In this document: piece by piece, positions 469 through 15,246 of the stretch
Numbering within the stretch: the stretch's first letter is position 1
Layout of the letters: the number at the start of each line of letters is the position of its first letter
Virus record (IMG/VR): IMGVR_UViG_3300034198_009790
Span: 1 to 23,108 of that record
Source of the DNA: a virus
Length of the DNA stretch: 23,108 nucleotides
Direction: 5' to 3' (one strand)
Position numbers and translations under genes: made by a program
Notes under the pieces: model-generated
Told to the model about the DNA's origin: nothing
What the model saw: the letters and a program-made list of their open reading frames with translations, nothing else
Databases searched by the model: none

Positions 469-858
469 ATGGATATCAATAACATGCGCAAAGCCGGAGA
501 AGCATTAGGCGCGTTTTTTAAATCGCCTGCTGCACAACAGTTTGGCAAAAAAGTTGCTTTTGATTTAACAGCTAATGCTATTACTTCTGCATTGAATCCG
601 CGAATTACAAACGCAATGCAGCCTTCAATTAGCAATGGTATTCAGCCCGAGGCGCAAGCTGCTTATGTTGCTCATACTTATGATTTAAGTGCTCAGCAGT
701 ATGTGCAAGCTCAAATGGAGCATCAACGCTACTTGCAGAAGATGAGTTTAATTCAAGCTGAAAAGCAACCAACGGAAGTTATTCATCAGACAAGGCAAGA
801 CCCTAGCGCAATCATTGCGCAAATGTATGCACAAGGCACATCCAAAAGGTATGTGTAA
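469..858 (+). CDS. Small Ala/Gln-rich helical protein with C-terminal Tyr-Val tag
   Basis: The product has 129 aa and no recognised family. The N-terminal 45 residues look amphipathic (GEALGAFFKSPAAQQFGKK), and the rest is Gln/Ala-rich and probably helical. The last 15 residues, IIAQMYAQGTSKRYV, resemble the end of the transglycosylase-like protein at 14003-14617 (DIANQMLQSSYSYV). The ATG follows a weak purine run (AGAAG). The stop TAA shares its last base with the ATG of the next gene (TAATG), implying translational coupling. By position and composition I infer a minor or internal virion protein, without direct evidence of function. Confidence 0.75.
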   Translation: MDINNMRKAGEALGAFFKSPAAQQFGKKVAFDLTANAITSALNPRITNAMQPSISNGIQPEAQAAYVAHTYDLSAQQYVQAQMEHQRYLQKMSLIQAEKQPTEVIHQTRQDPSAIIAQMYAQGTSKRYV

Positions 859-2312
859 TGAATCCAGAAACAGTAAATAATTACTTGAATAATGGGTTGA
901 AGTTTGCGCAAAACTTTGCTCAAGATGTAATAAAGAAAGCTGAAACAAATATTTATCAAAGCCGCTATGGTACTTACGGATCAACTTTTAAAAAAGCTAC
1001 AGACTACGTTAAACACGCAGCAAAACAGTCAACCAATGTTGGCAAAGCAACCACTGTAGCCGCTGGCGCTATCAATGATTTTTTAACTAATCAGACGCGG
1101 CAAGATTGGTGGCATTACACAAATGTTCCACGCATGGCAGGAACAGTTGCTGGAAAAGTAGTAAATACTCTTGGCATGAGGGGAACGCTTGCAGGTGCAA
1201 CTTTAGTAGCAGCGGCTCCGTATCTTAATCAAATTTTAAGCACTGGTGGCAGTCTTAATGTTAAAGAAGGACTTAGGCCCAAAGGATACAAATCTTTAGC
1301 ACCAGCGTCACTAGAAAAAGATCCAACAGGTCGGACACCTGTATCTGCTCCTGTAGATCTTTCGCTTCGGTATCTCACTGGTCGCACTGGTGATTTATTG
1401 CCGTATCAAGAATTTAAACAAGACCGTCCTGATATTCTTCCAAGTCAATATGTAAACTATCGTCGTTACACTCAAAAAAGAAACAAGCCCGGAAATCTTG
1501 TAACAATTGATCCTGAAACTGGAAGTTTTGTAACTGCACAAGGAATTGTACGCGGATCTGTTGAAGGCTTGGCAGGAGATCCTGAAATTCGCATTATAGG
1601 CCGTCCTGTTACTGCTAGTTCAGCTGCAGGTTTTGGTGCGGGGTATGCTGTTATGCGTGGGTTACAAGCGGCAACCAAACTTCCTGTAAGTGAGAAAACA
1701 AAAATTGTATCTGAAAAATTAAAAGTAGAAGATCAATTAAAAAAGGTTATCAATGACTTGAGTACCGATGCTAAAAAAGCAGGCTATACAATGCCTGGTG
1801 AAATGATTTTTAATCAACAAGCAATTCAAGAAAACATTAAAAAAGTTAAAGAAGCAGGTGGAGTTCTTAATGCATTAGAAGCTCTAAGGGATAAACAACC
1901 CATGCAACAACAAACAACTAATGCTAATTACTTTAGAGAGTTAAAAGAATTAAGTGAGAAATTAAGAGGAAATGAATCAGCTGGTAAACAAGCAGAAGAG
2001 TTGCACCAGAAAATTAATGATTTTAAAGAAAAAGCTGCTAATGTCAAAGAACCAGTTTTAAATATTGCTCAACAAGCAGGGCAAGCTTTAGGTCCGTACA
2101 AAAATTTAGCTGTTGCTGGCGTTGGCATTGCTACAGCATTAGGTGTTGGTTATGCCACGAAGAAAGCATTACAGAAAGCGTCAGAGCAACGCATTAAAAA
2201 AAGTAATCCGGTAGAATACTTAAAACACAAACACGGTAGTTTAGAAGCTGCAGGCGCAGCACTAGGACAACCAAATGCCCGTAGCTGGCAAGAACTTGCT
2301 TCTTACGTTTAA
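858..2312 (+). CDS. 484-aa protein with hydrophobic segments and coiled coil; candidate internal/ejection protein
   Basis: No family is recognised. Residues about 103-125, 251-268 and 416-434 form Ala/Gly-rich hydrophobic stretches that could insert in a membrane. Residues about 285-400 are Lys/Glu/Gln-rich with heptad-like spacing, suggesting a coiled coil. A hydrophobic-plus-coiled-coil build without a signal peptide is common in phage internal proteins ejected into the cell, so I infer that role. The protein ends ELASYV, sharing the terminal Tyr-Val pair with four other proteins here. Its start overlaps the previous stop by one base, and the next gene begins 2 nt after its stop, so it sits inside a tight operon. 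Pore-forming or peripheral tail protein are alternatives. Confidence 0.75.
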   Translation: MNPETVNNYLNNGLKFAQNFAQDVIKKAETNIYQSRYGTYGSTFKKATDYVKHAAKQSTNVGKATTVAAGAINDFLTNQTRQDWWHYTNVPRMAGTVAGKVVNTLGMRGTLAGATLVAAAPYLNQILSTGGSLNVKEGLRPKGYKSLAPASLEKDPTGRTPVSAPVDLSLRYLTGRTGDLLPYQEFKQDRPDILPSQYVNYRRYTQKRNKPGNLVTIDPETGSFVTAQGIVRGSVEGLAGDPEIRIIGRPVTASSAAGFGAGYAVMRGLQAATKLPVSEKTKIVSEKLKVEDQLKKVINDLSTDAKKAGYTMPGEMIFNQQAIQENIKKVKEAGGVLNALEALRDKQPMQQQTTNANYFRELKELSEKLRGNESAGKQAEELHQKINDFKEKAANVKEPVLNIAQQAGQALGPYKNLAVAGVGIATALGVGYATKKALQKASEQRIKKSNPVEYLKHKHGSLEAAGAALGQPNARSWQELASYV

Positions 2313-2314
2313 TT

Positions 2315-2677
2315 ATGGCTTGGAACGCTTCTACAGATTTTAAGTTTGATCCAGGAGCTAGTTCTGGCTGGGGAGGGAGTTTTGATGACGCATATAAAAC
2401 AGATTGGAATAAAGATTTTACCAAAGACAGCAGTTCAGGTAGCAATAAAGGATTAGATTTTTTAAAAGGATTTGCTAAAAATTTATTTGGCGGGCAAGAT
2501 CAAAACTCACCTTATTCTTTTGGCAAAGGTTCTGTTGGTACAGGATTTTCTCAATTTACTCCTGATATTGGAATTATCACTCAAGGCGGTGGTTCTGGAC
2601 AATTTATTCCTGGACAACCTGGCTGGGGTGAAAAATTATTATCCGCAGGATTAAGTGCAGCTACTGCTTTCCTTTGA
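2315..2677 (+). CDS. Gly/Ser-rich 120-aa protein of unknown function
   Basis: The product has 120 aa. The first 45 residues are rich in Asp, Ser, Gly and Trp (GWGGSFDDAYKTDW), the middle is Gly/Gln-rich, and the last 12 residues are hydrophobic (LLSAGLSAATAFL end). No family is recognised. It starts 2 nt after the preceding stop, so translation is probably coupled. It ends before a 43-nt gap that holds a -10-like box and a strong ribosome binding site for the next gene. Composition and neighbours suggest a small virion component. Confidence 0.65.
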   Translation: MAWNASTDFKFDPGASSGWGGSFDDAYKTDWNKDFTKDSSSGSNKGLDFLKGFAKNLFGGQDQNSPYSFGKGSVGTGFSQFTPDIGIITQGGGSGQFIPGQPGWGEKLLSAGLSAATAFL

Positions 2678-2692
2678 TAAACTTATTCAGCT

Positions 2693-2698
2693 TAAAAT
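2693..2698 (+). promoter_or_regulatory. -10-like box (TAAAAT) before the 2721 gene
   Basis: TAAAAT lies in the only sizeable gap of this part of the operon, with 22 nt between it and the ATG at 2721. That spacing matches other candidate -10 boxes in this window. No convincing -35 box is visible. The 2721 gene also has a strong Shine-Dalgarno sequence, AAGGAG, at about 2707-2712. Confidence 0.35.
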
Positions 2699-2720
2699 AC
2701 TAAACATAAGGAGTTAGATT

Positions 2721-3536
2721 ATGTGGCCTTGGATTTTAGGTAGCGCAGCTCTAGGCGGTCTTCAAGCCTACGGTCAAAGTGGAGGAGATATTGGCAAGAC
2801 CCTTATGGGCGCAGGCATTGGCGGCGGTTTAGGTGCTTTTGGCCCAGCAGTCTCACGTTTTGCAGGAGGAGCGTTAGCAAATACAGCATTAGCTAACCAA
2901 CTGGCGCCAACTGCTTATAAAGCATCTCAACTGTTTGCAAGAAGTCCAGGCGCATCTAGTTTAATTAATCCTTTGCTTCAGCAAAAAGCAGGAGTAGAGT
3001 TAATTGGTAAAGGCGGTGCAGCTCTTGCTGGACTTGGACTTTCAGCAGCAATTCCAACAGTAGCTTCTGGAATTGCTGGTGCAACCCCACAGATTTTTGG
3101 AGGTGGCAGCCGCAAAGCAGGTGATGCTTTACGAGGCTCAATGCAACTGTTGGGCGCAGGAAAAGAAGTTACTACCCCTGGAGCAACTGGTGATGTAAAT
3201 CTTGCAGGCCCGCCTTCTTTAGGTCAGTATGGTCCTGATAGTTACACCGATGTTGCGGCTCTTAATAGCGCTGCTCGCGGCCAAATGTTACGAGGAGAAA
3301 TGGAAACGCGTAGTCAGTTAGAACAGATGAAAACATTGATGCCATATCAATATGAAATGATTAACAAGGCAGCCAACGCTGATTTTCTTCGTCAAGGCGC
3401 TGGGGCTCAATTGCGTACTCGTCTTGCACAAGGTGCTCAAGCTATGTTACAAGCTCAACTTGGGGCTCAAGCACTTGCCCAGCAAGGTAATCAAGCTATG
3501 TTACAAGCTGCAACAATGCGTGGCGGGTATGTTTGA
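2721..3536 (+). CDS. Gly/Ala-rich 271-aa protein with glycine-zipper-like segments and Tyr-Val tail
   Basis: ATG follows a strong AAGGAG site. The N-terminal half has long Gly/Ala-rich hydrophobic stretches with GxxxG spacing (for example GAGIGGGLGAFGPAV, about residues 31-45), typical of proteins that pack in or against membranes. The C-terminal third is Gln/Ala/Leu-rich and helical, and contains a repeated QAMLQA segment encoded by a 19-nt direct repeat (3437-3455 and 3491-3509). The protein ends in ATMRGGYV, carrying the terminal Tyr-Val seen in four other proteins. I infer an internal or ejected virion protein; no enzymatic motif is visible. Confidence 0.7.
   Translation: MWPWILGSAALGGLQAYGQSGGDIGKTLMGAGIGGGLGAFGPAVSRFAGGALANTALANQLAPTAYKASQLFARSPGASSLINPLLQQKAGVELIGKGGAALAGLGLSAAIPTVASGIAGATPQIFGGGSRKAGDALRGSMQLLGAGKEVTTPGATGDVNLAGPPSLGQYGPDSYTDVAALNSAARGQMLRGEMETRSQLEQMKTLMPYQYEMINKAANADFLRQGAGAQLRTRLAQGAQAMLQAQLGAQALAQQGNQAMLQAATMRGGYV
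3437..3509 (+). repeat. 19-nt direct repeat inside the 2721 gene
   Basis: Two identical 19-nt copies lie at 3437-3455 and 3491-3509, offset by 54 nt (18 codons), so both are read in the same frame and encode Gln-Ala-Met-Leu-Gln-Ala. This is a small internal duplication in the helical C-terminal region. Confidence 0.8.
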
Positions 3537-3538
3537 TC

Positions 3539-4087
3539 ATGGCAGATTCTGGTTCGGCATTTGATTTAAAATCAATCTGGGATCTAGCTTCTAAAGGAAG
3601 TTTGCCTTTTTTAAAGCAATACGCTCAATACAAAGTTCCAGAATTTTCTGCTAAAGGTATTGAAGCACCTGCTTTTGATCCGTTTAGCTTGGCTCCTGCA
3701 AGTTCACAACAAAAAGCAAGCGGAAAACCAAATTTAGAACCTACTCCTGATGTATCAAAATATGGTATTTGGTCACCCGAAGATGCTTTAAGGTATCAAC
3801 AAGCATACGGCGACATGGCAACGCAGCAAGCTGCTACAGCCTGGCGGGACATCTATCAACCTGGCATTAACCAAGCCAAGTTGTATGATTATCAGCTTCA
3901 AGCCGCAGGTTATAAATTAAAAGAAAACTCACCAACAGCTGCGGCTCAACGGGGTCTCATTGCTGCTCAAAATTTAGCTTCTACAATGGCAGGAGAAGCT
4001 GGATTATCTAATGCTCTTGCGAATCAATTAATTGCAGCAAAACAACCTGCACGCATTGGCTATACTGGTCAAACTTTTACAACTTAA
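3539..4087 (+). CDS. 182-aa protein of unknown function
   Basis: I chose ATG 3539 (start MADSGSAFDL), which lies 2 nt after the upstream stop TGA at 3534-3536. A TTG two codons earlier is open too but overlaps that stop and has no better ribosome site. The protein has a Pro/Ser-rich middle (about 45-75) and an Ala/Gln-rich helical C-terminal half. Near its end LANQLIAAKQPARIGY resembles the short helix seen before the Tyr-Val tags, but this protein ends TGQTFTT instead. No family is recognised; a minor virion protein is inferred from location. Confidence 0.65.
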   Translation: MADSGSAFDLKSIWDLASKGSLPFLKQYAQYKVPEFSAKGIEAPAFDPFSLAPASSQQKASGKPNLEPTPDVSKYGIWSPEDALRYQQAYGDMATQQAATAWRDIYQPGINQAKLYDYQLQAAGYKLKENSPTAAAQRGLIAAQNLASTMAGEAGLSNALANQLIAAKQPARIGYTGQTFTT

Positions 4088-4097
4088 ACTTTTAACC

Positions 4098-4107
4098 TTG
4101 CTATACT
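4098..4107 (+). promoter_or_regulatory. Extended -10 promoter candidate (TTGC-TATACT)
   Basis: TTGC directly followed by TATACT (4102-4107) lies in the 41-nt gap before the 4129 gene, leaving 21 nt to its ATG. The same TTGC-TATAnT arrangement occurs before the capsid leader at 10888-10897. No -35 match was found, which fits an extended -10 promoter read by a sigma70-type host polymerase. Confidence 0.5.
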
Positions 4108-4128
4108 GATACCAACGAGTTTAATGTA

Positions 4129-4503
4129 ATGGGCAGTTCCTCTCCTGTTGTTTACAATCCACCACCGCCGCCGCCTCCGTCCACGCAGTCGGTATCTACG
4201 CAGTCACTGCAAAACCAGACTGCACTGATGGAAGTTAGCGGTCAACAACAGCAAGCAAACATGCGGCTTGGTGCTGAGCTAGATCGTGCTAACAGTGAGT
4301 TCTTTACTGGTCAGAACATTCGCCAGACGCAAGCCACTGGTGCTGAAACTCGTGGCACACTGCAAACAAGTGGTGAGCAAGAACGTTTAGGTTACGGTGA
4401 ACAAGGTAAACAAACCAGGCTCACACAACAGCAAGCACAAGACTATGATAAGTACAAATCTCAACGTGATTACGAGTGGTCGCAAAAAGCGTACAAAGCG
4501 TAA
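4129..4503 (+). CDS. Polyproline, Gln-rich coiled-coil protein
   Basis: The product has 124 aa. Residues 11-18 form a near-pure proline run, followed by a Gln/Thr/Arg-rich stretch (about 25-124) that is probably one long polar helix or coiled coil. No hydrophobic segment and no known motif are visible. The start codon is immediately preceded by an overlapping ATG-TAA start-stop pair (4124-4129), and there is no clear Shine-Dalgarno. The 3' end overlaps the next gene by 28 nt in another frame. A structural linker or internal virion protein is possible; function is unknown. Confidence 0.65.
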   Translation: MGSSSPVVYNPPPPPPPSTQSVSTQSLQNQTALMEVSGQQQQANMRLGAELDRANSEFFTGQNIRQTQATGAETRGTLQTSGEQERLGYGEQGKQTRLTQQQAQDYDKYKSQRDYEWSQKAYKA

Positions 4504-4985
4504 CTTCCTGGCTAGAACGGTTAACTGAAAACGAAAAAGAATCTTATCTTGCTTTTTGTAAGAAAGTTTCTTCTCCAATCCAGATGTACCTTTATGCCCG
4601 TTTCATGGGGTTTAAAGGTTCAATTGTTGAATGTGATCAGTGGGCACAGCAACAATACAAAAAACCAAACTTTAACTTGGTTCTAGAAACTGAGATTGCT
4701 TCCATGCAGGTTGACATTGCCAAGCTGCGTGAAGGCATTGACATGGGAATGGTAAAGCAAGATATGGGAACTGCCCGTATTGCTATGCTGCAGAAAGAAC
4801 TGCGCGGTGCCATCAAACAATTGAATGATGAAAAACACTTAACAGATAAACAAGGTTTAATTCTTGCTGGTGCTGATCGTTCTTTAAGGGAGTTGCTTCT
4901 TATCTTTAGGGATGATCCAATTGAAGAATCTTTACAGGTTGCTTCCATGGGAGTGTGGACAAAAATCCTGGCAGAAGAATCCTAA
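4476..4985 (+). CDS. Putative small terminase subunit (helical protein just before the large terminase)
   Basis: The product has 169 aa, largely helical. Residues about 40-62 (ARFMGFKGSIVECDQWAQQQ region) could form a helix-turn-helix-like DNA-binding fold, followed by a charged coiled-coil middle (about 75-130). Small terminase subunits recognise phage DNA for packaging, often lie directly upstream of the large subunit and have a DNA-binding head plus oligomerising helices, so size, shape and place fit. I see no diagnostic motif. The GTG start at 4476 lies inside the previous gene without a ribosome site. The next in-frame ATG (about 4584) would cut off the N-terminus, so the true start is uncertain. 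Confidence 0.55.
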   Translation: MVAKSVQSVTSWLERLTENEKESYLAFCKKVSSPIQMYLYARFMGFKGSIVECDQWAQQQYKKPNFNLVLETEIASMQVDIAKLREGIDMGMVKQDMGTARIAMLQKELRGAIKQLNDEKHLTDKQGLILAGADRSLRELLLIFRDDPIEESLQVASMGVWTKILAEES

Positions 4986-5009
4986 GGTTTAGTAGCGTAA
5001 CCTAAAGGG

Positions 5010-6533
5010 ATGTCAGGAACTAGCATCTACTCTGTTTATCGGAGAACAGCACGAGCTGCTGCAAAGCAACACGTTGTCAAGAAAACATCAGACATTGATG
5101 TTGAAAGAGCGCGTACAGATTTTGCTTATTTTTGTGATGTTGTAGGTGACAAAAAACCTGCGAAGCATCACATGCAATGGCATCAGTATCTTTGCACTGG
5201 TGAAGATTCTGAATGTTTAATGAGTATTGGCGGTCCTAACGTTGACATCTTGGCTCCACGAGGATCAGCCAAAAGCACAGTTCTTGGTTTGTTTACTGCA
5301 TGGGCTATTGGTGTACATGCCCTACACAAAAAACCCTTAAAGATTCTTTACATCTCTTATACGGTTGATGTTGCTCGCCCCAAGAGTGCAGCTATCAAAC
5401 GAACCATTGAAGAAAGCAAACTCTATCGAGAGATCTTCCCAACGGTTAAAATTGCTAAAGGGATTAACTCTAACGAGTATTGGAGTATTGATTGGAAGTT
5501 TGCTGGCATTAAATCTACAGGTGAAGAAGAATTTACTGTATGTTGCGCAGGTCTTAAAGGTGCAGTGACTTCAAAACGTAGTCACCTTCTTATCCTCGAT
5601 GACGTGGTAAAGTCCGCCGACGACATTAAAAACAAAGATATTCGCTTAATGATGGAAGATAACTGGAACTCAGTTATTGTTCCAACCATGTTTGAAGGCG
5701 GCAGGGCAATCTGCCTTGGCACTAGATTCCGACATGATGATATTCACAGCACAACATTTACTCCAGCAAATAACTGGGTACAGCTTATCCAGTCTGCGGT
5801 TACTGTTGACAAGGAAGGCGATGAGGTTTCTTACTGGCCAGAAATGTGGTCACTGGAATACCTGCAAGATCGTCGGCGCCAGGCACCAATTAGTTTTAGT
5901 TTTCAGTACCAGAATCAAATTGTTCAAACCAGTGAGCTGTCCCTCTCCCCTGACTTGATTGTTAAAGGACAAATCCCTACAGAGTTTGATCGTATTGGGA
6001 TTGGCGTTGACCTTTCCGCTGGCGTCAGAGAACGTAATGACTACAGCGTATTTGTTTTGGGTGGGCGCGTAGGAGATAAGGTCTACATCATTGACTGCAA
6101 GCGCATCCGAATCATGGGCAACCTAGAAAAATTAGAAGCCCTAATGGAGATGCTCTACGAGTGGGGGATTGTTCATAAAGACGGAAATAACTACCATCCA
6201 ACTGGCACCAGTGTTGATGTTTGGTCAGAAGCTGTTGCCTATCAAGCATCTTTAGAAGCTGATTTTAAGCGAATTTGTTTAGGAGATCATGGACTCTATA
6301 ACATGATTTGGCACCCAATCAAAGGTTTCCGTGGCGACAAAGTTGCACGCTTTAGGGGCATTATGGGGTTGTTTGAACAACGCAAGATTAAGTTCAACAA
6401 GTACCGTAAGTTCCAAGCATTAACAGATGAAATCGTAAACTTTGGCGTCAGTTCTCACGACGATACGGTCGATGCCTTAGTATGGTTGTGCAATGGCCTA
6501 ATGGCCAGAGGAAAACTAGAGTTAGAGTATTGA
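5010..6533 (+). CDS. terL: Large terminase subunit (DNA-packaging ATPase/nuclease)
   Basis: The product has 507 aa, a usual length for the family. It drives ATP-dependent DNA translocation into the prohead and cuts the concatemer. The ATPase domain shows a Walker A loop at residues 82-90 (APRGSAKST), a Walker B at 193-198 (LLILDD) and a motif-III-like LGTRF at 236-240. The C-terminal RNase-H-like nuclease domain has the first acidic residue in IGIGVDLSAG (D334), a second candidate in VDVWSE (402-407) and the final pair in SSHDDTVDAL (D484, D485). All key residues are present, so it should be active. It begins 24 nt after the putative small subunit; AAAGGG just before the ATG is a weak, very close ribosome site. 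Confidence 0.95.
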   Translation: MSGTSIYSVYRRTARAAAKQHVVKKTSDIDVERARTDFAYFCDVVGDKKPAKHHMQWHQYLCTGEDSECLMSIGGPNVDILAPRGSAKSTVLGLFTAWAIGVHALHKKPLKILYISYTVDVARPKSAAIKRTIEESKLYREIFPTVKIAKGINSNEYWSIDWKFAGIKSTGEEEFTVCCAGLKGAVTSKRSHLLILDDVVKSADDIKNKDIRLMMEDNWNSVIVPTMFEGGRAICLGTRFRHDDIHSTTFTPANNWVQLIQSAVTVDKEGDEVSYWPEMWSLEYLQDRRRQAPISFSFQYQNQIVQTSELSLSPDLIVKGQIPTEFDRIGIGVDLSAGVRERNDYSVFVLGGRVGDKVYIIDCKRIRIMGNLEKLEALMEMLYEWGIVHKDGNNYHPTGTSVDVWSEAVAYQASLEADFKRICLGDHGLYNMIWHPIKGFRGDKVARFRGIMGLFEQRKIKFNKYRKFQALTDEIVNFGVSSHDDTVDALVWLCNGLMARGKLELEY

Positions 6534-6759: not shown

Positions 6760-9036
6760 ATGAGCGAAACCAACACAATTCTTGATGGAATGTTGCGTGC
6801 TGCGGTAACCCGCGAGTCAACAGGCGCAGCAGATACCATGCTCATTAATGCCCACCTTTCCCAAATGAAAATGTTTGGGATTAGACAGGGCGTTGAATTT
6901 TATCCAGACCAAGATAACTTTGGTACTCAGCGTTTTGACTTTATTCAGCAAGTCATTAAGTTTAACAAATTAGACGCTCGATTAGATGCCATCTGGGATA
7001 GGTTTCTGGCATACGGTAAAGGTTTGTTCTATATTCGGCCAACAAAGAAAACGTATCGGTTGTACTGGTTTGACAAAGATGCGTACCGTACATACTACAC
7101 TCCCGAAGGTGACTTAGAAGAAGTAATTATTATTTATCCTTATAAAGTTAAATCCTCCCGTGGTTTTGGGGGAGCAGGACTTACTACGGATAAACGATAC
7201 ATGCGGTTACGGATCACCGCTACTGAGATTGAAGAATCGCACAGCGAACAGGAAATCAGCTTTGATATGCCTGAAAACTTTGCATCTTTAAACTCTAAAA
7301 CTGTAATCAATACTCTGGAATTTATTCCTTGTATTGAAGTTTTTAATAACCCAGATGCGTTTGGTACGGAAGGCAGCGGTGAATTTGAATGGCTGGCTAA
7401 TCAAGTTATTGCCCATGATGAAATGGTCAAAAACATCAGGGCAAACCTTTCATTCTTTGGTAATCCAACTCTGCTTTCTTCTCGTCCTAAACAGGACATC
7501 ATTGAAAAGCAAGACGGAGAAGTTGCCCAGCGTCCTAGTATTTCTAGCCAATCAGGATTCCAGTCAGAGTTCAGCCTTTCATCTTCTACTTACAAGCAAG
7601 ATAATGTAAGCCGCAACTCTCCCGGTTACATTGGTCGCCCTGGTTCTGGCATGAGAGTGCCCAGGGTTATTGCCAACCTGGAGCCAACAGATCGCGTTGG
7701 TTTCATTACGCCAATGGCCGTCAGTTCTGAACAAGCTCGTTACGTTGATCAGCTTCGTTCAGAAATCCGACTGGCATTAGGCGGTATTGATGACCTCAGC
7801 ATTACCAATGTAACCGCTACTGAAATCAAATCAGCTTACGGACGTGTTAGCGCCACAGCTAAAAAGAAGTGTTTGCAGCTTTACACCTACGGTTTGTGCA
7901 AGTGCTTTGAGCTGATGATCTTCCAGGAAGAACAAATCTTCCGCAAGAGCCTGGCACAAGCATCTGGATTAATGTATCCAAATCCTCCTGAAAATCCAGA
8001 CGATCCTGTTGAACAAGGTAAATATCAAAAAGCAAAAGTAAAATATGAGAAGGGCTTACAGAAGGCCATTGATAATGCCATTGAGACTAAAAAGATTCCT
8101 GATGGTGTCCTTGGATTAGCGCCAGATGGTGATAGAACCGTGTGCTGGCGGTGGATGGGACCAGTTTATGAAGATACAGCACAGGACAAACTTAACCAGT
8201 CAATCTTTACACGAAACCTACAAGAATTAGGTGTTGATAGCATTGAAGCACTGAAGTACCTTTTCCCTTCAAAAACAGATGATGAGATTGCAGGAATGCT
8301 ATCTGGTTATCCGTTTAGAATGGTAGGAGAGGTACAAAGGGCGTACTCATCGTTTATTGATTTAGTCAATTTACAAATGAGGACTCCACACCCGCAGCAA
8401 CCAAATCTCCCGATGGCTGCGGACCCTAGATTAAATCTCACCCCGTTCCTTTACAGAACTTTAGAAAGTCTTCAAAAAGAGGTAACCTATGCAGGCAGAT
8501 ACCGCAGCGCCGATCCAATCGGCACCCCAGTCTTACCAGACCCAGCCGACCAGTTACGCGGCGCCGGTAGCTCAGCAGACGGCGGCTCAGGCTTCTTCAG
8601 TGGCTACAACCCCGCAATGGGTGGCGCCCTACCAAGCAGCGGTGGCCCCAGCCCCGCAAATGCAGGCCCAGATGGGGGTCCAGCAACCCCAATTCAACCC
8701 TACTCAGTCGTACCCCCAGGCTTACCAGCCGTCGGCTCCACAAGCAGCGGAGAACCCTTACAAGGAAGCGTTCAACCGGGTGGTGGGACTCCTGAGTTCG
8801 CCGGTCCAATTCCCGTTCCAGGGTCAACAATCACAAGCGACCGAACAACTCGCCCCGGCCAATTACAATTCCCAGGCGTATTCCCAGTACAGCAACAACA
8901 GCGTGTATCCGGGTCAGCAGACCTTTACGCCTGGAACCAACAGCAACCAGGGTTACTCCAACAGCTCTTCCCCAACTTCACTGGAAATCAGCAGGGAGCA
9001 GCTCCTGGCAAACGGGGTAAGCCCAGCAAGTCTTGA
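6760..9036 (+). CDS. Portal protein with a long disordered C-terminal tail overprinting the next gene
   Basis: The product has 758 aa. Position directly after the terminase and before a scaffold-like and a capsid gene, the size, and an internal LGGIDDL...NVTATEIK segment (TATEI at 352-356) followed by a long helical region fit a portal, the dodecameric ring at the capsid vertex through which DNA passes. Residues 1-576 are an ordinary mixed sequence. Residues 577-758 become Gly/Pro/Ser-rich, lack secondary-structure character and end basic (GKRGKPSKS). That tail is encoded where a second gene (start 8489) runs in the +1 frame, and no earlier stop exists in the portal frame. A weak AGAAG precedes the ATG. 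I recognise no closer named family. Confidence 0.8.
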   Translation: MSETNTILDGMLRAAVTRESTGAADTMLINAHLSQMKMFGIRQGVEFYPDQDNFGTQRFDFIQQVIKFNKLDARLDAIWDRFLAYGKGLFYIRPTKKTYRLYWFDKDAYRTYYTPEGDLEEVIIIYPYKVKSSRGFGGAGLTTDKRYMRLRITATEIEESHSEQEISFDMPENFASLNSKTVINTLEFIPCIEVFNNPDAFGTEGSGEFEWLANQVIAHDEMVKNIRANLSFFGNPTLLSSRPKQDIIEKQDGEVAQRPSISSQSGFQSEFSLSSSTYKQDNVSRNSPGYIGRPGSGMRVPRVIANLEPTDRVGFITPMAVSSEQARYVDQLRSEIRLALGGIDDLSITNVTATEIKSAYGRVSATAKKKCLQLYTYGLCKCFELMIFQEEQIFRKSLAQASGLMYPNPPENPDDPVEQGKYQKAKVKYEKGLQKAIDNAIETKKIPDGVLGLAPDGDRTVCWRWMGPVYEDTAQDKLNQSIFTRNLQELGVDSIEALKYLFPSKTDDEIAGMLSGYPFRMVGEVQRAYSSFIDLVNLQMRTPHPQQPNLPMAADPRLNLTPFLYRTLESLQKEVTYAGRYRSADPIGTPVLPDPADQLRGAGSSADGGSGFFSGYNPAMGGALPSSGGPSPANAGPDGGPATPIQPYSVVPPGLPAVGSTSSGEPLQGSVQPGGGTPEFAGPIPVPGSTITSDRTTRPGQLQFPGVFPVQQQQRVSGSADLYAWNQQQPGLLQQLFPNFTGNQQGAAPGKRGKPSKS
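8478..8488 (+). promoter_or_regulatory. Strong ribosome binding site inside the portal gene
   Basis: AGAGGT lies 5-6 nt before ATG 8489 and is one of the best Shine-Dalgarno sequences in the window. It lies within the portal reading frame and decides that the scaffold-like gene starts here, 548 nt before the portal stop. Confidence 0.75.
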
Positions 9037-9514
9037 AGTTATTGATTATTTTGGTGCTGATGCTGCCAACGTTCTCAATAACTACGCTTGCGAACTTGAA
9101 AATCATCTGATTGTTACCAACAACCAGTTGATTGAGGCTGTTGGTCTGCTTCAAGAACTTGGCAATGAGCATCGTGCCTACGAAGCTATTCTGACTGATC
9201 CAGACATCCTTGCTGATTACACCTGTCAGTTCTTCGGTGAAAACGGTCCTTATCCGATTCCCGATGAAGAAGCTGGGTTTATTCCTCAAGGTGTGAACAC
9301 TGGTTATCGTTCACTGGCACGTCCAGAGCAACAGCAGTTTGAGCGTCCTCAAATGCCAGTGCCTCCGCAACCCCAAGCTCAAGGTAATCCTGTTGCCTTC
9401 TGGGATAGCTTTGGTGCTCTTGCTGAGCGTGATCCTGCTAATGCCTGGCGCTATCTTAACCAAGCTTCTAGCAACCCTGATGTGTTCCGCCAGAAACTTC
9501 TGGTTATGGAATGA
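8489..9514 (+). CDS. Putative scaffolding/capsid-assembly protein
   Basis: The product has 341 aa. Residues 1-165 are Gln/Pro/Ala/Tyr-rich and low in complexity, apart from a short helical patch near 88-103. Residues 165-341 look folded, Glu/Leu/Asp-rich and acidic, with helical stretches such as LEVIDYFGADAANVLNNYA. A gene between portal and major capsid protein, with a disordered half and an acidic helical half, is the usual place and build of a phage scaffold that shapes the procapsid; this is inference, not a family match. The start has a strong ribosome site. The first 548 nt overlap the portal tail. The GC content falls from 67% (8521-8580) to 40% (9061-9120) after the overlap. A terminator follows. 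Confidence 0.7.
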   Translation: MQADTAAPIQSAPQSYQTQPTSYAAPVAQQTAAQASSVATTPQWVAPYQAAVAPAPQMQAQMGVQQPQFNPTQSYPQAYQPSAPQAAENPYKEAFNRVVGLLSSPVQFPFQGQQSQATEQLAPANYNSQAYSQYSNNSVYPGQQTFTPGTNSNQGYSNSSSPTSLEISREQLLANGVSPASLEVIDYFGADAANVLNNYACELENHLIVTNNQLIEAVGLLQELGNEHRAYEAILTDPDILADYTCQFFGENGPYPIPDEEAGFIPQGVNTGYRSLARPEQQQFERPQMPVPPQPQAQGNPVAFWDSFGALAERDPANAWRYLNQASSNPDVFRQKLLVME

Positions 9515-9607: not shown

Positions 9608-9627
9608 AACTATATCGAGCATTTAAA

Positions 9628-10089
9628 ATGTACATTCTACCAGATCCTTGGGGACGCGCGGCTGAGGATTACAAAGATGCGCGTGATAACGCAGGACCTC
9701 CTGATGGTGTTAATCAAGTAATGGGCAAACGACGGTCAGCGCGTGATGCAGCAAAGAATTTTTTAAAGAATAAAGCGCGTCAAGCTCAACAAAGTACTGC
9801 CGGACAAAAAGTTGCTCAAGTTGCTGGTGCAACCGCACAAAATATTAAACAAAATCCAATGTTCCAGCAAACAATGGGAGCAGTACAAAATATTGGACAA
9901 AATCCGATGTTCCAACAAGCTATGGGAGCAGTACAAAATCTCCCAGGTGGGCCGCTTCCTTATGCCATGGGAGCTACTGCCTTAGGAACAGCAGGTGTTT
10001 TAGCATTGCGACAGAAAATGAAGCAAGATGCTGCAGCAAAAGCACAAGCTGCGGCTGTTAATCCTGCAGCACAAATGCCTCTTTATTGA
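9628..10089 (+). CDS. 153-aa Ala/Gln-rich protein with 16-residue tandem repeat and C-terminal hydrophobic segment
   Basis: The product opens with MYILPDPWGRAAEDYKD, then a basic stretch (about 33-53). Two 16-residue repeats follow at residues 76-91 and 92-107 (consensus NPMFQQxMGAVQN), then a hydrophobic segment at about 113-127 (AMGATALGTAGVLAL) and an Ala/Lys-rich end. The arrangement suggests a membrane-associating or membrane-penetrating small virion protein. No family is recognised. It is the first gene after the terminator, so it opens a new transcription unit that probably runs into the next two genes. Confidence 0.7.
   Translation: MYILPDPWGRAAEDYKDARDNAGPPDGVNQVMGKRRSARDAAKNFLKNKARQAQQSTAGQKVAQVAGATAQNIKQNPMFQQTMGAVQNIGQNPMFQQAMGAVQNLPGGPLPYAMGATALGTAGVLALRQKMKQDAAAKAQAAAVNPAAQMPLY
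9853..9948 (+). repeat. Two 48-nt tandem repeats in the 9628 gene
   Basis: Units 9853-9900 and 9901-9948 are nearly identical in DNA and encode NPMFQQTMGAVQNIGQ and NPMFQQAMGAVQNLPG. The differing third positions (CCA/CCG, CAG/CAA) show the duplication has aged under protein-level constraint. Confidence 0.9.
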
Positions 10090-10103
10090 TTACCGTTAAA
10101 ACA

Positions 10104-10855: not shown

Positions 10856-10887
10856 TTCCACTGTTATTAATTCAGGTAAGTAAGTGG

Positions 10888-10897
10888 TTGCTATAAT
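10888..10897 (+). promoter_or_regulatory. Extended -10 promoter of the capsid operon (TTGC-TATAAT)
   Basis: TTGC is followed directly by a perfect TATAAT (10892-10897), the best -10 box in the window. It lies upstream of the capsid gene, which by codon choice should be strongly expressed. The expected start of transcription, about 7 nt downstream near 10904, falls next to an ATG at 10906. No TTGACA-like -35 box is present at 17 nt. Confidence 0.65.
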
Positions 10898-10905
10898 TTT
10901 ATTTA

Positions 10906-10995: not shown

Positions 10996-11000
10996 CCAAC

Positions 11001-12140
11001 ATGTTCATTGATAATGATTTCCCGAAGCTGTTGGGTGCGGAACTGTACCGCCCCCATCCAGCTTATATCGTGGAAATGGCTGCCGAGCCGGTGGTCGTCC
11101 ACGACTTCACCAAACAACCTGGTCAAACCGTTCAGTTAGACCGCTATCGGTTCTGGGGCAACCCTGGCACCAAGGCCAGCCGCGAGCGGACTCAAGACCA
11201 AACAATCGGTACTGCTAACAGCCGTTCGATTGTTAAGGACAAAGTGCTTGTGTCTCTTCGTGAGTACACCGGCCCTGCTGACCCGAACAACTCCAACGCT
11301 CCCAGCACTTTCAAGATTGCTCGGGAAACGCTGATGACCGCTCAGCGTCTGCTGCTGGACACGGGGAACCTTAACATGTTCCATCAGTCCATCGGTTCGC
11401 TGACCCTGCTTGATGACTACCGCCGCTGGCGTGACCGTGTGCTGCTCGATGAGCTGTACAAGTCCTTCTCCCGTGGCCAAGCTTCTGATACGCAAGGCGG
11501 TTACTACTACCCCAACAACCACACCAATACCAGCGGCACGGTTAGCACCTATACCGCCACTGAGTATGCCTCTGAGCGTTACAAGTTTAACGTGAAGAGC
11601 GACCTTCTGGAAGTTGTCAAAGGTCTGCGTAAGCGTAACGTTCCCGTCTTCCAAGATGGTTACTACCGTTGTATCGCTGATCCCTCCTTCATGAAGGATC
11701 TGCGTGCTGACCAAGGCTTCCGTGAAGTTGCTCGTTACCCTGGCATGGGTGCTGGCAACCCGATGATGGGCGCTATGGGTCCAAACCAAGCCATCTACGG
11801 TGGTGGTCAGTACGGCCAAGCTCAGTTTGTGGGCGGCGAGCCCATCATGCCCTCTGGCTTTGTGTTTGAAGGCGTGCGTTTCTTCGAGTCAACCAACTTT
11901 ACCAATCTCACCGCTACTGTTGACATTGGTGATGGTGGCGGTTCTATCAGCCATACAACTCCTCCTGGTCTGTTCTTCGGTCCTCAGGCTGTTGGTATTG
12001 GTATCGGTGGTCCTAACGCTCAAGTTCTCATTAACAACAACGACGACTTCAGCCGCTTTATCATTCTGATCTGGCAGCTGTACGCTGGTTTTGCGAACCT
12101 GAACAAGGACTTCTGCACCGTTGCATTCACCATTGTTTGA
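11001..12140 (+). CDS. Major capsid protein, N4-gp56/HK97-fold-like
   Basis: The product has 379 aa. The N-terminal region (AEPVVVHDFTKQPGQTV then a basic-aromatic RYRFW, about residues 29-52) and the following VLVSLREYTGP (about 83-93) resemble the N4-gp56-type capsid family with its HK97 fold. A long helix-rich part (about 100-155) follows, then a Gly/Met-rich stretch (YPGMGAGNPMMGAMG, about 248-262) and a hydrophobic C-terminus. Codons favour C- and G-ending forms (60% GC in 11041-11100 against about 40% in neighbours), which fits very high expression. No ribosome site lies next to the ATG; a leader ORF ends five bases upstream. The gene is followed by a second gene with similar codons and a strong ribosome site. 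Confidence 0.8.
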   Translation: MFIDNDFPKLLGAELYRPHPAYIVEMAAEPVVVHDFTKQPGQTVQLDRYRFWGNPGTKASRERTQDQTIGTANSRSIVKDKVLVSLREYTGPADPNNSNAPSTFKIARETLMTAQRLLLDTGNLNMFHQSIGSLTLLDDYRRWRDRVLLDELYKSFSRGQASDTQGGYYYPNNHTNTSGTVSTYTATEYASERYKFNVKSDLLEVVKGLRKRNVPVFQDGYYRCIADPSFMKDLRADQGFREVARYPGMGAGNPMMGAMGPNQAIYGGGQYGQAQFVGGEPIMPSGFVFEGVRFFESTNFTNLTATVDIGDGGGSISHTTPPGLFFGPQAVGIGIGGPNAQVLINNNDDFSRFIILIWQLYAGFANLNKDFCTVAFTIV

Positions 12141-12157
12141 TAGGAGGTAACTAAATC
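12141..12157 (+). promoter_or_regulatory. Strong ribosome binding site for the 12158 gene
   Basis: TAGGAGGTAA fills the 17-nt gap after the capsid stop, the closest match to a full anti-Shine-Dalgarno complement in the window. It fixes ATG 12158 as the start and indicates high translation. Confidence 0.8.
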
Positions 12158-13018
12158 ATGGCTACTTACAAAACTGGTGGTGGTGCCGTTCTTTATCCCG
12201 GCGACCAAATCAATCGTCTTTCCGGTTACAACCAAGAAGGTGTTTTTGGTTGGCCTGGCGTTGAAGCTTACGAAGTTGTTGGTTATGTGCCCATCACTAC
12301 CTCAACTTTGATTAAGACTTTCACCAACATCACGGTTCCCTCCCCTGACCGTCGCGTTGATGATCGTGTTCGTGACAACCTGACTTCTATGGTTGTTCCG
12401 GCTTCGAGCGCCCAACCTTCGTTCATTTACGGTGCTTCTATTGCCATTGCCCAGGACATCCCTTCTGGCGTTGGTTATGGCACTGGGGCTCTGCCTGGTT
12501 TCCCTGGCGTGCCTGTGACTGCTGATCTTGTTGGTACTACCAGCGATCTGCTTCTGTTTGGTCCTGACAACAGCGGTGTCCCCACTGGCGTTACTACCGC
12601 TAACAAAGCTCTTGGTATTGGCAACGCTGTTGCTTACCTGACGGCTGCTAGCAATGCCTTTGCTCAAGGTGCTTCTGCTCTGTCCAACGGTAACGCTACT
12701 GCTGGTTCTCTGCCTTTTGCTAACTCTGTTACTTCTGCTGGTATCGTTGCTGCTGACTTCTACAGCTCGATGTTCTACAAAGTGACCAGTGCTACAACCT
12801 TTGGTGTGTACAGCGTGCTTACTGCTGCTGCTACAACTGCTAACGGTTCTGGTGTGGACATCAGTACTACTGACGTTGCCAACGGTAAGACCGGTTACAT
12901 TGTTTGCCGCATTAACTATCTCCGTGCTGCTAGCGCTGCTGGCTGGCGTGAGATCCAAGGCTTCATCGACTTCCCGTCCCAGATTGGCGGTGGCGATGGC
13001 CCTGGCGTTAACGGCTGA
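12158..13018 (+). CDS. Abundant structural protein, candidate capsid decoration or second head protein
   Basis: The product has 286 aa, rich in Ala, Gly, Ser, Thr and Val with few charged residues, as expected for a beta-rich exposed structural protein. It lies 17 nt after the capsid gene behind a near-perfect ribosome site and shares its codon style (frequent GCT, CTG, GGC, AAC). Genes placed directly after the major capsid gene with equal optimisation often encode decoration, cement or major tail components. No signal peptide or enzymatic motif is visible, and I recognise no named family. The N-terminus (GGGAVLYPGDQINRLSGYNQ) is Gly/Asn-rich and the middle is very low in Lys. Confidence 0.7.
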   Translation: MATYKTGGGAVLYPGDQINRLSGYNQEGVFGWPGVEAYEVVGYVPITTSTLIKTFTNITVPSPDRRVDDRVRDNLTSMVVPASSAQPSFIYGASIAIAQDIPSGVGYGTGALPGFPGVPVTADLVGTTSDLLLFGPDNSGVPTGVTTANKALGIGNAVAYLTAASNAFAQGASALSNGNATAGSLPFANSVTSAGIVAADFYSSMFYKVTSATTFGVYSVLTAAATTANGSGVDISTTDVANGKTGYIVCRINYLRAASAAGWREIQGFIDFPSQIGGGDGPGVNG

Positions 13019-13027
13019 TGTAAGTTG

Positions 13028-13088
13028 AGTCAGTTAATGTATTGATAGTGCAATTAACCTTTAAATGCTCTATCAATACAAACTGACT
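13028..13088 (+). promoter_or_regulatory. 17-bp interrupted inverted repeat with the start codon of the next gene in its loop
   Basis: AGTCAGTT (13028-13035) pairs with AACTGACT (13081-13088), and TATTGATAG (13040-13048) pairs with CTATCAATA (13070-13078). A small 4x2 internal loop separates the two stems, and 21 nt (13049-13069) form the apical loop. ATG 13065-13067 of the helix-hairpin-helix gene is in that loop, and the right arm lies in its coding region. No T-run follows. It may be an RNA structure controlling translation or a protein-binding operator. Confidence 0.8.
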
Positions 13089-13505
13089 GGCGGATTGGTC
13101 GAAGTCCTTGCTGATTATGGCGAAGGAATTGTAATGTGTGTGGATGCGCAGGACGAGGTTCATTATCTTGAAAAAGATAACCTCGTCCCGCATCTTTCCG
13201 CAACCAATGAAAAAGAACGGACAAAGGAGCGCTTGCGTGAAGTCTTGAAGCAAGATGGCGTTACTCCTCCAGAACCGTCAAATAAAGAAACGTTCCCTGT
13301 TGATGTTCGATTGAATATCAATACGGCAAGTGCCAGGCAGATTGCTGACGCATTACCTGGAGTAGGATTAAAGACAGCTAGAGACATTAAAGATCTGCAA
13401 ACTTCGATGCCTGGCGAGAAGTTTCTGCGGTTGGATCAGCTCAAGTCAATTAAACGTGTTGACTGGGATGAAATTATTGCAGAAAATCTCGTAAGAGTCG
13501 AATAA
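13065..13505 (+). CDS. Helix-hairpin-helix protein with a beta-rich N-terminal domain
   Basis: The product has 146 aa. Residues 1-43 look like a small beta barrel (GGLVEVLADYGEGIVMCVDA). A charged linker follows (45-80). Residues 84-108 carry a ComEA-type helix-hairpin-helix signature, NINTASARQIADALPGVGLK, with LPGVG at 97-101, followed by FLRLDQLKSIKRVDW, which fits the second half of the repeat. These motifs bind the DNA backbone without sequence preference. There is no export signal, so it is not a competence receptor. Its place between capsid genes and an adaptor-sized gene suggests a head-completion or DNA-end-binding role. No ribosome site precedes the ATG, which lies in the loop of an inverted repeat. 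Confidence 0.75.
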   Translation: MLYQYKLTGGLVEVLADYGEGIVMCVDAQDEVHYLEKDNLVPHLSATNEKERTKERLREVLKQDGVTPPEPSNKETFPVDVRLNINTASARQIADALPGVGLKTARDIKDLQTSMPGEKFLRLDQLKSIKRVDWDEIIAENLVRVE

Positions 13506-13506
13506 G

Positions 13507-13523
13507 TGCAATAAATTTATGCA
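13507..13523 (+). repeat. Short near-perfect palindrome before the 13524 gene
   Basis: TGC-A-ATAAATTTAT-GCA fills the 18-nt gap between stop 13505 and ATG 13524; ATAAATTTAT is a perfect palindrome flanked by TGC/GCA arms with one bulged base. It could be a small operator or only AT-rich spacer. Confidence 0.3.
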
Positions 13524-14003
13524 ATGAAACTAGATACATTCAATCAATCTAAAGTTCGTTGGCACCTTGGTTATAACTTAACCTCGGTGCCAGCTGGTGA
13601 CCAAGCACGTTTAGAAGAAGCAATTAACAATATTCAAGACTCTTTTTGGTACAGCAAAATTATTGAACAGATTGGTCGGTGTGATGAAGCTGAAAAGCGC
13701 ACCGATATGACAGGTAGCGTCAACAATGCTGAAGTACCAAAAGGACGTTTAGAAAACATTGCTGGTGACGTTGTTCGTACCGTTAGCACTACAGACTTTA
13801 AAGATACGCTTAAAACCTGGACACAGATTTATTTATACGAAACTGATCGTCTTGCATTGCACTTATACGTTCCTAACTATAGGAATCCAGAGCAAGCACG
13901 ATATAGGTTTAATAGAGAAGGTTCAGAATTTATTCAAGCTTTACCTGGTCCTGCCGATGTTTCTATTGGCACCAGAATTAAATTCATGGAAGAGTTACGA
14001 TAA
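13524..14003 (+). CDS. 159-aa protein, candidate head-tail adaptor
   Basis: The product is mostly helical at the N-terminus (about 20-60, LEEAINNIQDSFWYSKIIEQI) with a beta-rich C-terminal half (LHLYVPNYRNPEQARYRF, about 112-131). Length, the mixed helical/beta build and the position between capsid and hydrolase genes fit a head-tail adaptor or neck protein that docks under the portal. No signature I can name is present, so this is contextual. The stop TAA overlaps the next ATG by one base (TAATG), implying coupled translation with the transglycosylase-like gene. Confidence 0.6.
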   Translation: MKLDTFNQSKVRWHLGYNLTSVPAGDQARLEEAINNIQDSFWYSKIIEQIGRCDEAEKRTDMTGSVNNAEVPKGRLENIAGDVVRTVSTTDFKDTLKTWTQIYLYETDRLALHLYVPNYRNPEQARYRFNREGSEFIQALPGPADVSIGTRIKFMEELR

Positions 14004-14617
14004 TGGCAAATTTTAGACCGGGGCAGATAGCTAATTTGCTGCGACAGCAGGGTGTTGCTGAAGATAAAATTCCAACAATGACTGCTATTGCATTAGCAGA
14101 ATCAAGTGGAAATACTCAAGCATTTAATCCAACTGGGCTAGATAAATCATTTGGGCTATTTCAAGTCAATATGCACGGGGGTCTTGGACCTGCCAGGATG
14201 AAACAGTTTGGATTAAGAAGTGAACAAGAACTTTTTGATCCAACAGTAAACGCACGCGCTGCAAAACAAATCTTGGGAAGCCAAGGTTTAGGTGCATGGA
14301 CTACCTATACCAGCGGTAAGTATAAAGAGTTTTTACCACAAGCTCAACAAGGTTTATCTGAAGCAAGTCAAAAACCAGAATTTCAACAACAACAGCAACC
14401 TAGCGCAACAACTCCAACAAGCAAAGAGTTTCTTTCTGCGTTTACTGAACATCTTAATAAACAAAATGAACTCTTAGAAGCAGTTGTTAAATCTAAAAAA
14501 GAAAGTTTCACTCAAAACGATGACCCCTATGGCTTAAAAAATATCCCTATTCCCAAACCAGGTAATCCTCAAGACATTGCAAATCAAATGTTGCAATCAT
14601 CTTACTCTTACGTTTAA
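14003..14617 (+). CDS. Lytic-transglycosylase/lysozyme-like virion hydrolase
   Basis: Residues 1-111 match the soluble lytic transglycosylase/lysozyme fold. ALAESSGN has the candidate catalytic Glu at 33, SFGLFQVN (49-56) corresponds to the GLxQ(I/V)N substrate-groove motif, DPTVNARAAKQIL (79-91) is the conserved helix, and AWTTYTSGKYKEFL (98-111) ends the domain. Such enzymes cleave peptidoglycan glycan strands. A Gln-rich linker (about 120-135) follows, then a helix LNKQNELLEAVVK (about 151-163) and the C-terminus NPQDIANQMLQSSYSYV. There is no signal peptide or holin nearby, so a virion-borne enzyme that opens the wall during entry is likelier than a lysis endolysin. Its partner gene follows after 5 nt. 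Confidence 0.85.
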   Translation: MANFRPGQIANLLRQQGVAEDKIPTMTAIALAESSGNTQAFNPTGLDKSFGLFQVNMHGGLGPARMKQFGLRSEQELFDPTVNARAAKQILGSQGLGAWTTYTSGKYKEFLPQAQQGLSEASQKPEFQQQQQPSATTPTSKEFLSAFTEHLNKQNELLEAVVKSKKESFTQNDDPYGLKNIPIPKPGNPQDIANQMLQSSYSYV

Positions 14618-14622
14618 AAACA

Positions 14623-15246
14623 ATGGCTGGAATAAGTGTTGTTGATTTAGCCAAAGCCTTTGAAGGATACGGATTAAAAGCAGGAGAAAATCCTGAGGTT
14701 GGTTCTGGCAAAGTAGGCAAACATGCTCCTGGTTCTTATCACTACTCTGGTGAAGCTATAGATGTTACTGACTGGCGTTCGGGTGACTGGAAGAAACGCA
14801 CAGGAGATTTACGCTGGCGTGGAGCAGAATTAAAAAAAGTAGTTCCCGGTTTACTTGAGGTTTTAGGCCCTGGAGACCCTGGGCACGATACTCATCTTCA
14901 TGTAGCAGGTAAAGAAATTAACATTACGCCGCAACAAACCGAGTGGTGGGCAACAGGGCGTTGGAAAACACCAGAAGGAAGGGTGATGGCAACAATGCCA
15001 GGTGCTCAACAACTACAACAAGCGCAATCAACAGAACAACAAGAAGACCCTGGCAAAAAACAATTAGCTGAATACTTACAAAGAAATAATGAATTGATTT
15101 CTCAAGTGGTTGAACAATTAAAACCAAAAGATAAAACAACAGGTACTGCAGGGTTAATGGAAGAACTGTTTTCTTCTCCTGGCTTCAGTCAAGATTTCTT
15201 AAGCAATGCAATTGCTGCTGCATCTAAACCAACTCAGTACGTTTAA
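14623..15246 (+). CDS. M15/VanY-like peptidoglycan peptidase with the same C-terminal docking region
   Basis: Residues 1-100 carry the zinc-peptidase pattern of the M15/hedgehog fold: SYHYSGEAID (38-47), giving ligands H40 and D47, and HDTHLHV (88-94), giving the HxH pair H91/H93. Such enzymes cut peptide stems or cross-links in peptidoglycan. It follows the transglycosylase-like gene by 5 nt, so the pair would attack both the sugar and peptide parts of the wall. A Gln-rich linker (about 128-143) leads to LQRNNELISQVVEQL, alike in sequence to the helix in the neighbour, and to a C-terminus ending SKPTQYV. These shared ends suggest that both enzymes attach to the same virion site. Confidence 0.8.
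   Translation: MAGISVVDLAKAFEGYGLKAGENPEVGSGKVGKHAPGSYHYSGEAIDVTDWRSGDWKKRTGDLRWRGAELKKVVPGLLEVLGPGDPGHDTHLHVAGKEINITPQQTEWWATGRWKTPEGRVMATMPGAQQLQQAQSTEQQEDPGKKQLAEYLQRNNELISQVVEQLKPKDKTTGTAGLMEELFSSPGFSQDFLSNAIAAASKPTQYV

Follow-up and report, generated by a model that had tools for sequence, protein, structure and literature searches.

Five proteins encoded in a 23,108-base stretch of viral DNA (IMG/VR record IMGVR_UViG_3300034198_009790, positions 1 to 23,108; hereafter, the window) end in Tyr-Val. Among their relatives, the last residue drifts, and the feature that is kept is a tyrosine within the last one to four residues. This feature is real, conserved, and unusual, and the interpretation that fits it best is a loading tag at the C-terminus. 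The window holds part of the genome of a cyanobacterial virus, a relative of Synechococcus phage S-EIV1. Its terminase, portal, and capsid protein are 63.9%, 51.5%, and 68.0% identical to those of S-EIV1, which places it in the S-EIV1 lineage, and S-EIV1 was the sole phage record that matched its portal and capsid protein at E = 1e-5. The five proteins are:

469..858, + strand: g02, 129 amino acids, without a Pfam or PHROG match, with the tail IIAQMYAQGTSKRYV; its last 20 residues (796..855, + strand) have an amphipathic moment above that of shuffled sequences.
858..2312, + strand: g03, 484 amino acids, ending in SWQELASYV (C-terminal 20 residues at 2250..2309, + strand).
2721..3536, + strand: g05, 271 amino acids, with a hydrophobic Gly-rich N-terminal part, a long helix, and a terminal GGYV (tail at 3474..3533, + strand).
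14003..14617, + strand: g20 (lysin 1), with an SLT_3 lysozyme-like domain, a Gln-rich linker, a helix, and the tail DIANQMLQSSYSYV (14555..14614, + strand).
14623..15246, + strand: g21 (lysin 2), with an M15-like carboxypeptidase domain, a linker, a helix, and the tail AIAAASKPTQYV (15184..15243, + strand).

The initial annotation, made from the DNA alone, had drawn attention to these ends, and the stops and ends are as it described: KRYV (stop at 858), ASYV (2312), GGYV (3536), YSYV (14617), and TQYV (15246). It had proposed comparing their number to the expected frequency. Tyr-Val (YV) makes up 0.30% of the dipeptides in the window's called proteins, and 5 of the 31 called genes end with it (P = 3.8e-8 for five or more). 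This is still about 1.5e-5 after allowing for 400 dipeptides, so chance is no explanation. When one random position was taken from each protein, any dipeptide reached five in just two of 20,000 draws.

In the nearest relative, contig G001 (84,149 bp; its major capsid protein, or MCP, is 100% identical to the window's, and its portal is 95% identical), 5 of 132 called genes have YV ends. Each is orthologous to one of the window's five, and all are in the 25-gene virion block. None of the 107 genes elsewhere in G001 ends this way, which means that YV ends are not common in its non-virion genes. They are absent from the other eight long contigs and from the 128 listed genes of S-EIV1 (leaving out the gene that spans the start of the S-EIV1 record). 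The final Val is a property of the small clade of the window: YV is the local spelling of the end.

That the codons vary and the pair is kept at the protein level also holds up. The terminal Tyr is encoded by both TAT and TAC in all seven families counted, and the final codons differ, so we rejected a DNA-level cause such as stop context or an overlapping signal. TAC is commoner at the tag (113/182, summed by hand) than inside the same proteins (611/1494). Scanning bases 1-16000 for promoters and terminators gave numbers close to chance (18 found versus 23.3 expected; 21 versus 16.5).

The conservation of the end was examined in relatives drawn from 597 terminase loci and 591 capsid loci (the best 80 of each) and from 15 lysin-1 loci, with genes called by a simple purpose-made caller. 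Near-duplicate sets (G029, G027, L085, L160, and G012) were removed before the family counts that follow and before the covariation analysis; S-EIV1 was left out of the family counts as well. Only families with at least 8 members were counted, and nine smaller families were skipped. Both lysins and g02 were assigned partly by position (g02 by hidden Markov model, or HMM, or by its place after g01). In eight families, 62-100% of the non-redundant members have Tyr in the last four residues: g05 (35/35), g25 (27/28), g02 (32/39), g03 (13/16), g13 (6/8, a set collected by position in which at least one row, from G009, resembles the scaffold-like g12), g07 (28/39), lysin 2 (15/21), and lysin 1 (18/29). 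In the 13 other families, the counts run from 0 to 5/32: g01 0/37, g06 4/39, g10 2/12, portal 0/29, g14 1/35, g15 5/32, g17 0/22, g18 0/14, g24 0/20, g27 0/14, g29 0/11, g31 1/25, and g32 0/10. Pooled across ten genomes, a near-terminal Tyr (within four residues of the end) occurs in 53 of 209 block genes, versus 109 of 926 other genes (P = 1.8e-6).

Three of the eight families were not among the five proteins with YV ends:

4129..4503, + strand: g07, 124 amino acids, ending in AYKA (AYRA, QYRT, SYRV, or AFRA in relatives).
9628..10089, + strand: g13, 153 amino acids, ending in MPLY (IRY, ISY, VYG, or IVY in relatives).
15950..16735, + strand: g25, ending in GGYY.

The trait is common to g07 (AYKA) and g13 (PLY), and perhaps to g25 (GGYY), although the end of g25 is perhaps an independent structural end. 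In g07, 35 of 39 members have an aromatic residue in the last four. Among the original five, g03 is the weakest member: its Tyr is at -3 in most relatives, as PYVK or PYIK. Both g25 and g03 may be separate cases, with ends that resemble parts of larger conserved ends.

The final residue can be V, F, I, L, M, A, G, S, T, Q, K, or none. For instance, g02 proteins end in RYV, RYI, RYF, NYF, RYM, RYL, QYG, TYG, NYA, or RY. The ends of g05 include GGYV, QYQYS, QYQYQ, QYRYF, QYRYL, TYLY, and FRYF, and its Tyr occupies one of the only two columns that do not vary across 36 homologues (mean column identity, 30%). Lysins end in SYV, QYV, SYL, NYA, EYA, NYLS, NYLA, NYFA, and NYFK, among others, and an aromatic residue is found in the last four residues of 22/29 lysin-1 and 18/21 lysin-2 relatives. 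YV itself is not what homologues keep. The next relative, L003, retains it in just one of the five proteins (g05, GGYV); Tyr is near the end of its g02 (RYI) and its lysins (TSYL and DYLSS) as well, and its g03 ends in PHM.

As the initial annotation proposed, there is a short helix before the Tyr. The helical hydrophobic moment of this region is above that of same-residue shuffles in lysin 1 (z = 4.9-6.5), lysin 2 (5.1-5.8), g02 (4.2-5.1), and g05 (8.4-9.8). Mean tail moments are 0.31-0.37, versus 0.275 for 331 genes of four contigs; for g02, the values are 0.35-0.36, versus 0.26 in shuffles (n = 37). Examples include the lysin tails INPLQLLMGAFNQTPNYLA and SPMELAQQMVTTEPTNYFK and the g02 tail NPFEIANQMLSTPTTRYF. 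In the predicted model of g05, a single helix (residues 184-268) runs up to the tag, with a block pLDDT of 91-94 over residues 191-260. In the predicted model of g21, pLDDT is below 50 for residues 184-207, within which 190-201 form a short helix.

We also compared the tails by profile. With the lysins removed from the target, an HMM of 61 lysin tails gave 49 C-terminal matches, including 9 from g02 and 18 from g05, although the loci are redundant and the single E-values are weak (the best is 0.027). On random inner stretches, the same HMM gave 3 matches to these two families out of 45 (2 and 1). Tested against C-termini that are far from the block, tail HMMs from different lysin classes recognise each other (area under the curve, or AUC, of at least 0.80 in 14 of 20 comparisons). 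The likeness of the upstream residues that the initial annotation described is real in kind: g02, g05, and both lysins have an amphipathic helix there. Judging from these profiles, a long motif is firm for the lysins only; g02 and g05 share the helix character and the Tyr end.

Among the lysins, the tail is kept while the catalytic domain preceding it is exchanged. g20 matches PF18896 (SLT_3; 55.9 bits, cut-off 27, E = 6e-15) and PF01464 (30 versus 21.3). g21 has no Pfam match over the cut-off, and it carries the motifs SxHxxGxAxD and HxH, which we take to be the zinc motif of peptidase M15: S38, H40, G43, A45, D47, H91, and H93 are invariant in 6/6 sequences. phmmer matched g21 to 1lbu (E = 0.012). 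Compared to solved folds, its model had no Foldseek hit at E = 0.001, and the best VIA score (Z = 5.5) was not distinctive; a search for its kin by DNA patterns gave nothing useful. The lysin-1 slot contains SLT_3 in the window, SLT in L107 (E = 9.5e-18), a lysozyme like PDB entries 1am7 and 3d3d in G011 (E ~ 1e-13), and another kind of endolysin in G018 (phrog_12490, E = 7e-6). The lysin-2 slot contains either an M15-like or an M23-like domain. BLAST of the first 130 lysin residues gave six classes and one singleton, and the minimum number of class changes on the portal tree is at least 5 for lysin 1 (25 rows) and at least 4 for lysin 2 (18 rows).

Even the window and G001 have different domains in lysin 1 (22189..22857 in G001, which is classed as SLT by its BLAST grouping with L107), and their last 69 residues differ at 12 positions (counted by hand). 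By sequence comparison, this is a recent domain exchange. The linkers before the tails are variable among relatives. Within a genome, the tails of lysin 1 and lysin 2 are more alike than across genomes (27.3 versus 6.3, P = 5e-5).

The usual lysin place after g19 holds no lysin genes in G004, G007, G009, G010, and G028. In four of these five contigs, g02 also lacks the terminal Tyr (the g02 of G009 was not seen).

Because the tail is kept when the enzyme is swapped, it probably acts as a plug for loading these proteins into the particle. More broadly, an element in the same place on unrelated bodies, with variable linkers and exchangeable enzymes, has the pattern of a docking tag. The carriers are encoded in the head block and include a peptidoglycan hydrolase, as ejection proteins do. 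The initial annotation had suggested a common C-terminal docking or sorting signal, and this is the best reading, with one correction: since the last residue varies while the Tyr is kept, the idea that Tyr-Val itself is the signal is not supported. For the same reason, its other suggestion, a protease recognition site, fits poorly. We infer that the carriers are present in the virion and are ejected, and that all of the tails have a single partner. We give an even chance to the proposal that the C-terminus is a docking tag by which lysins and ejected proteins are brought onto a single component, either of the virion or of its assembly. Such a tag would run from a flexible linker (or a long helix) through an amphipathic helical turn of about 12 residues to a Tyr (sometimes Phe) in the last one to four residues. 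It would most likely bind one shared component during head assembly, and this binding would load the wall-cutting enzymes along with proteins of hydrophobic, helical character that exit together with the DNA. Possible docks would be the scaffold-like g12, the portal, the capsid protein, or a core of ejection proteins, and we make no choice among them. g12 is a candidate by its position between the portal and the MCP, and its role as a scaffold is putative:

8489..9514, + strand: g12, a scaffold-like open reading frame between the portal and the MCP, with a conserved end (AWRYLNQA..NPDVFRQKLLVME).

g12 overlaps the 3' end of the portal gene by 548 nt in a different frame. The relative L173 has a 335-amino-acid version with a start and end of the same kind.

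The main rival to head loading is that the proteins join after ejection. Here, the tails would bind each other or an ejected channel, so that the lysins, g02, and g05 form one periplasmic complex, and other parts of these proteins would load them into the head. Amphipathic helices could pack together, and the predicted long helix of g05 appears to terminate in the tag. Also, the encapsulation peptides of microcompartments are described as self-associating (PMC12339742), and in T7, the tape segment of gp16 behind the transglycosylase domain is described as stitching gp15 (PMC8954989). This idea is close to the docking-tag reading, and both may be true; on its own, we consider it unlikely.

Several observations weigh against a shared loading tag. 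The terminase, which is not a virion protein and belongs to the nine families too small to be counted, has EY at its end in 73 of 81 redundant loci; a terminal Tyr is thus not by itself the mark of a virion protein. Some members of the tagged families lack the end: Tyr is absent from the last four residues in 11 of 29 lysin-1 and 6 of 21 lysin-2 tails, the g02 proteins of one clade end in GLRA or VRL (G004, G007, G010, and G028), and the g02 of G024 ends in ILR. In the tail-HMM test, g02 (AUC = 0.62-0.77) and g05 (0.60-0.78) did not score above control virion families (0.47-0.77 for g01, g06, and g14; 0.83 for g17; 0.86 for g19), so only the helix character and the Tyr end are common to them and the lysins. 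Within a genome, the stretches that precede the two lysin tails are also alike (10.9 versus 1.9 across genomes, weaker than the tails), so common descent or gene conversion can explain the likeness of lysin 1 to lysin 2. S-EIV1 keeps the trait only partly, at ~51% portal identity: its g07 homologue ends in AYRY and its lysin-2 homologue (annotated as peptidase M23) in SGMFG, while its g03 homologue (E = 3.8e-21) ends in EYTEDLG, without Tyr in the last four. Homologues of g02, g05, g13, and lysin 1 were not detected in S-EIV1. Nor does S-EIV1 alone have a significant excess of Tyr in the last four residues of block genes (5/26 versus 11/103 elsewhere, P = 0.31).

Seven of the ten protein pairs tested for tail likeness within the same genome were negative, and only lysin 1 with lysin 2 was clearly significant. 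The g02 tail was more similar to the lysin tails of its own genome than to those of other genomes, with uncorrected P values of 0.047 and 0.019, from 12 and 9 lineages. Across 32 tree rows (leaving out rows without Tyr in the last 7 residues of g02), the residue after Tyr is hydrophobic in both g02 and g05 in 10 and in neither in 22. This reflects just two changes in each family, both in the same way (sign test, 0.5); one of these gave G030 its YF ends, independently of the other YF clade. Two of the rows left out, G024 and L039, have a hydrophobic g05 end, which speaks against strict coupling. No partner was found when we scanned 13 families (three of them without the key genome G030) for columns that track the residue after Tyr; the scan gave one Ile/Val column.

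Another explanation is that there is no common partner. Each family's Tyr would serve its own fold or contact, the lysin tails would be alike by descent, and the YV match within the window's clade would be coincidental. The end of the terminase and the g02-lysin comparison with controls are consistent with this, and control families keep end residues of their own (Trp in 14/14 g27 and Gly in 22/22 g17). The ends of g25 and g03, which resemble pieces of larger ends, point the same way. But the same residue type is kept in eight families and not in 13, a helix precedes the Tyr in four of the eight, and in the window's clade, the last residue is also identical in five proteins. We think that separate causes are a doubtful account of the pattern.

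The tails might instead be interfacial membrane helices with an aromatic anchor, which would settle the ejected proteins on the host membrane. The amphipathic helix and the terminal aromatic residue fit this idea. However, typical lipid-seeking helices are cationic, whereas the last 20 residues of the lysins and g02 carry a net charge of 0 on average (range -3 to 2, n = 89), so we consider this improbable. A signal for degradation or processing, or one of the PDZ type, that is recognised at the free C-terminus would suit the extreme-end position and the hydrophobic Val of the window's clade, but such readers recognise the last residue, which is not fixed here, and we view this as very improbable. 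A PDZ-type ligand with a fixed hydrophobic last residue was rejected on this ground.

The virion gene block of the window comprises g01-g08, terminase, portal, the scaffold-like g12, g13-g15, capsid, g17-g19, the two lysins, and tail-like genes. Its genes include:

5010..6533: terminase, 3' of g01-g08.
6760..9036: portal.
11001..12140: capsid protein (MCP), between g13-g15 and g17-g19.

The terminase match spans ~2,028 bases instead of 1,521 in the relatives L002, L012, and L020. The S-EIV1 terminase has 846 amino acids, versus 507 in the window, with an intein- or intron-like insert as in those three relatives. A lone minus-strand gene of 85 amino acids (19706..19963) lies inside the virion block. 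Its counterpart is kept in relatives, in the same place and orientation and with a similar end (KLDRILDHLL).

How ejection proteins and virion lysins enter heads is poorly known. If these tails are loading tags, they would be transferable, which could be tested in cultured S-EIV1-like phages, and they could serve as tags for packing foreign proteins into phage heads. They would also point to additional cargo proteins among the still unnamed genes of this widespread lineage. And a cargo code would let the lineage swap wall-cutting enzymes domain by domain.

In the literature that we searched, which does not prove that none is in print, we found no C-terminal loading tag from a phage. The SLxIGSL type of sequence, which is presumably the kind of motif that targets cargo to encapsulins, does not occur in the phage tails. 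The targeting peptide of family 1 encapsulins is described as short, modular, and usually at the C-terminus of the cargo, and it binds the inner face of an HK97-fold shell by hydrophobic contacts; SGSLNIGSLK is an example (PMC10960027). The window's proteins likewise have a short conserved C-terminal peptide behind a flexible linker. Encapsulins have one cargo type and a Leu/Ile/Val-rich peptide, whereas the phage tails are carried by several cargo proteins and combine a helix with a terminal Tyr, and their dock is putative. More tentatively than for the docking tag itself, we suggest a C-terminal cargo code, in which a shared dock would load any enzyme placed before the tail. This would amount to encapsulin-like loading in a phage, possibly onto the same HK97-fold shell.

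The encapsulation peptides of bacterial microcompartments offer a second likeness: these are terminal amphipathic helices of ~18 residues, found on different cargo enzymes and attached by a disordered linker of poor conservation (PMC12339742). The phage tails also combine a terminal amphipathic helix with a poorly conserved linker. Microcompartments are non-viral, and the available portion of that source tells of no near-terminal Tyr rule for their peptides (PMC12339742).

Among phages, propeptides of T4 are described as targeting immature proteins to the prohead core, and SPN3US has eight substrates with N-terminal propeptides that are cut by the prohead protease (PMC10052503). As in T4 and the giant phages, we propose a targeting sequence that is common to proteins packed in the head. 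Theirs is N-terminal and removed by a protease, while the element described here is C-terminal and nothing indicates cleavage. In P22, the ejection proteins gp7, gp16, and gp20 are proposed to dock on a column of scaffold (PMC12005531). In T7, the last five residues of gp16 are basic and are needed for infectivity (PMC8954989). The portions of these sources available to us tell of no shared terminal tag for the three ejection proteins, and here the enzymes are small separate proteins. Like the ejection sets of T7 (gp14-16) and P22, the window has a gene block that combines hydrophobic or helical proteins with a transglycosylase. By analogy with the P22 ejection proteins and with the peptides of encapsulins and microcompartments, we propose that the tail loads proteins into the head.

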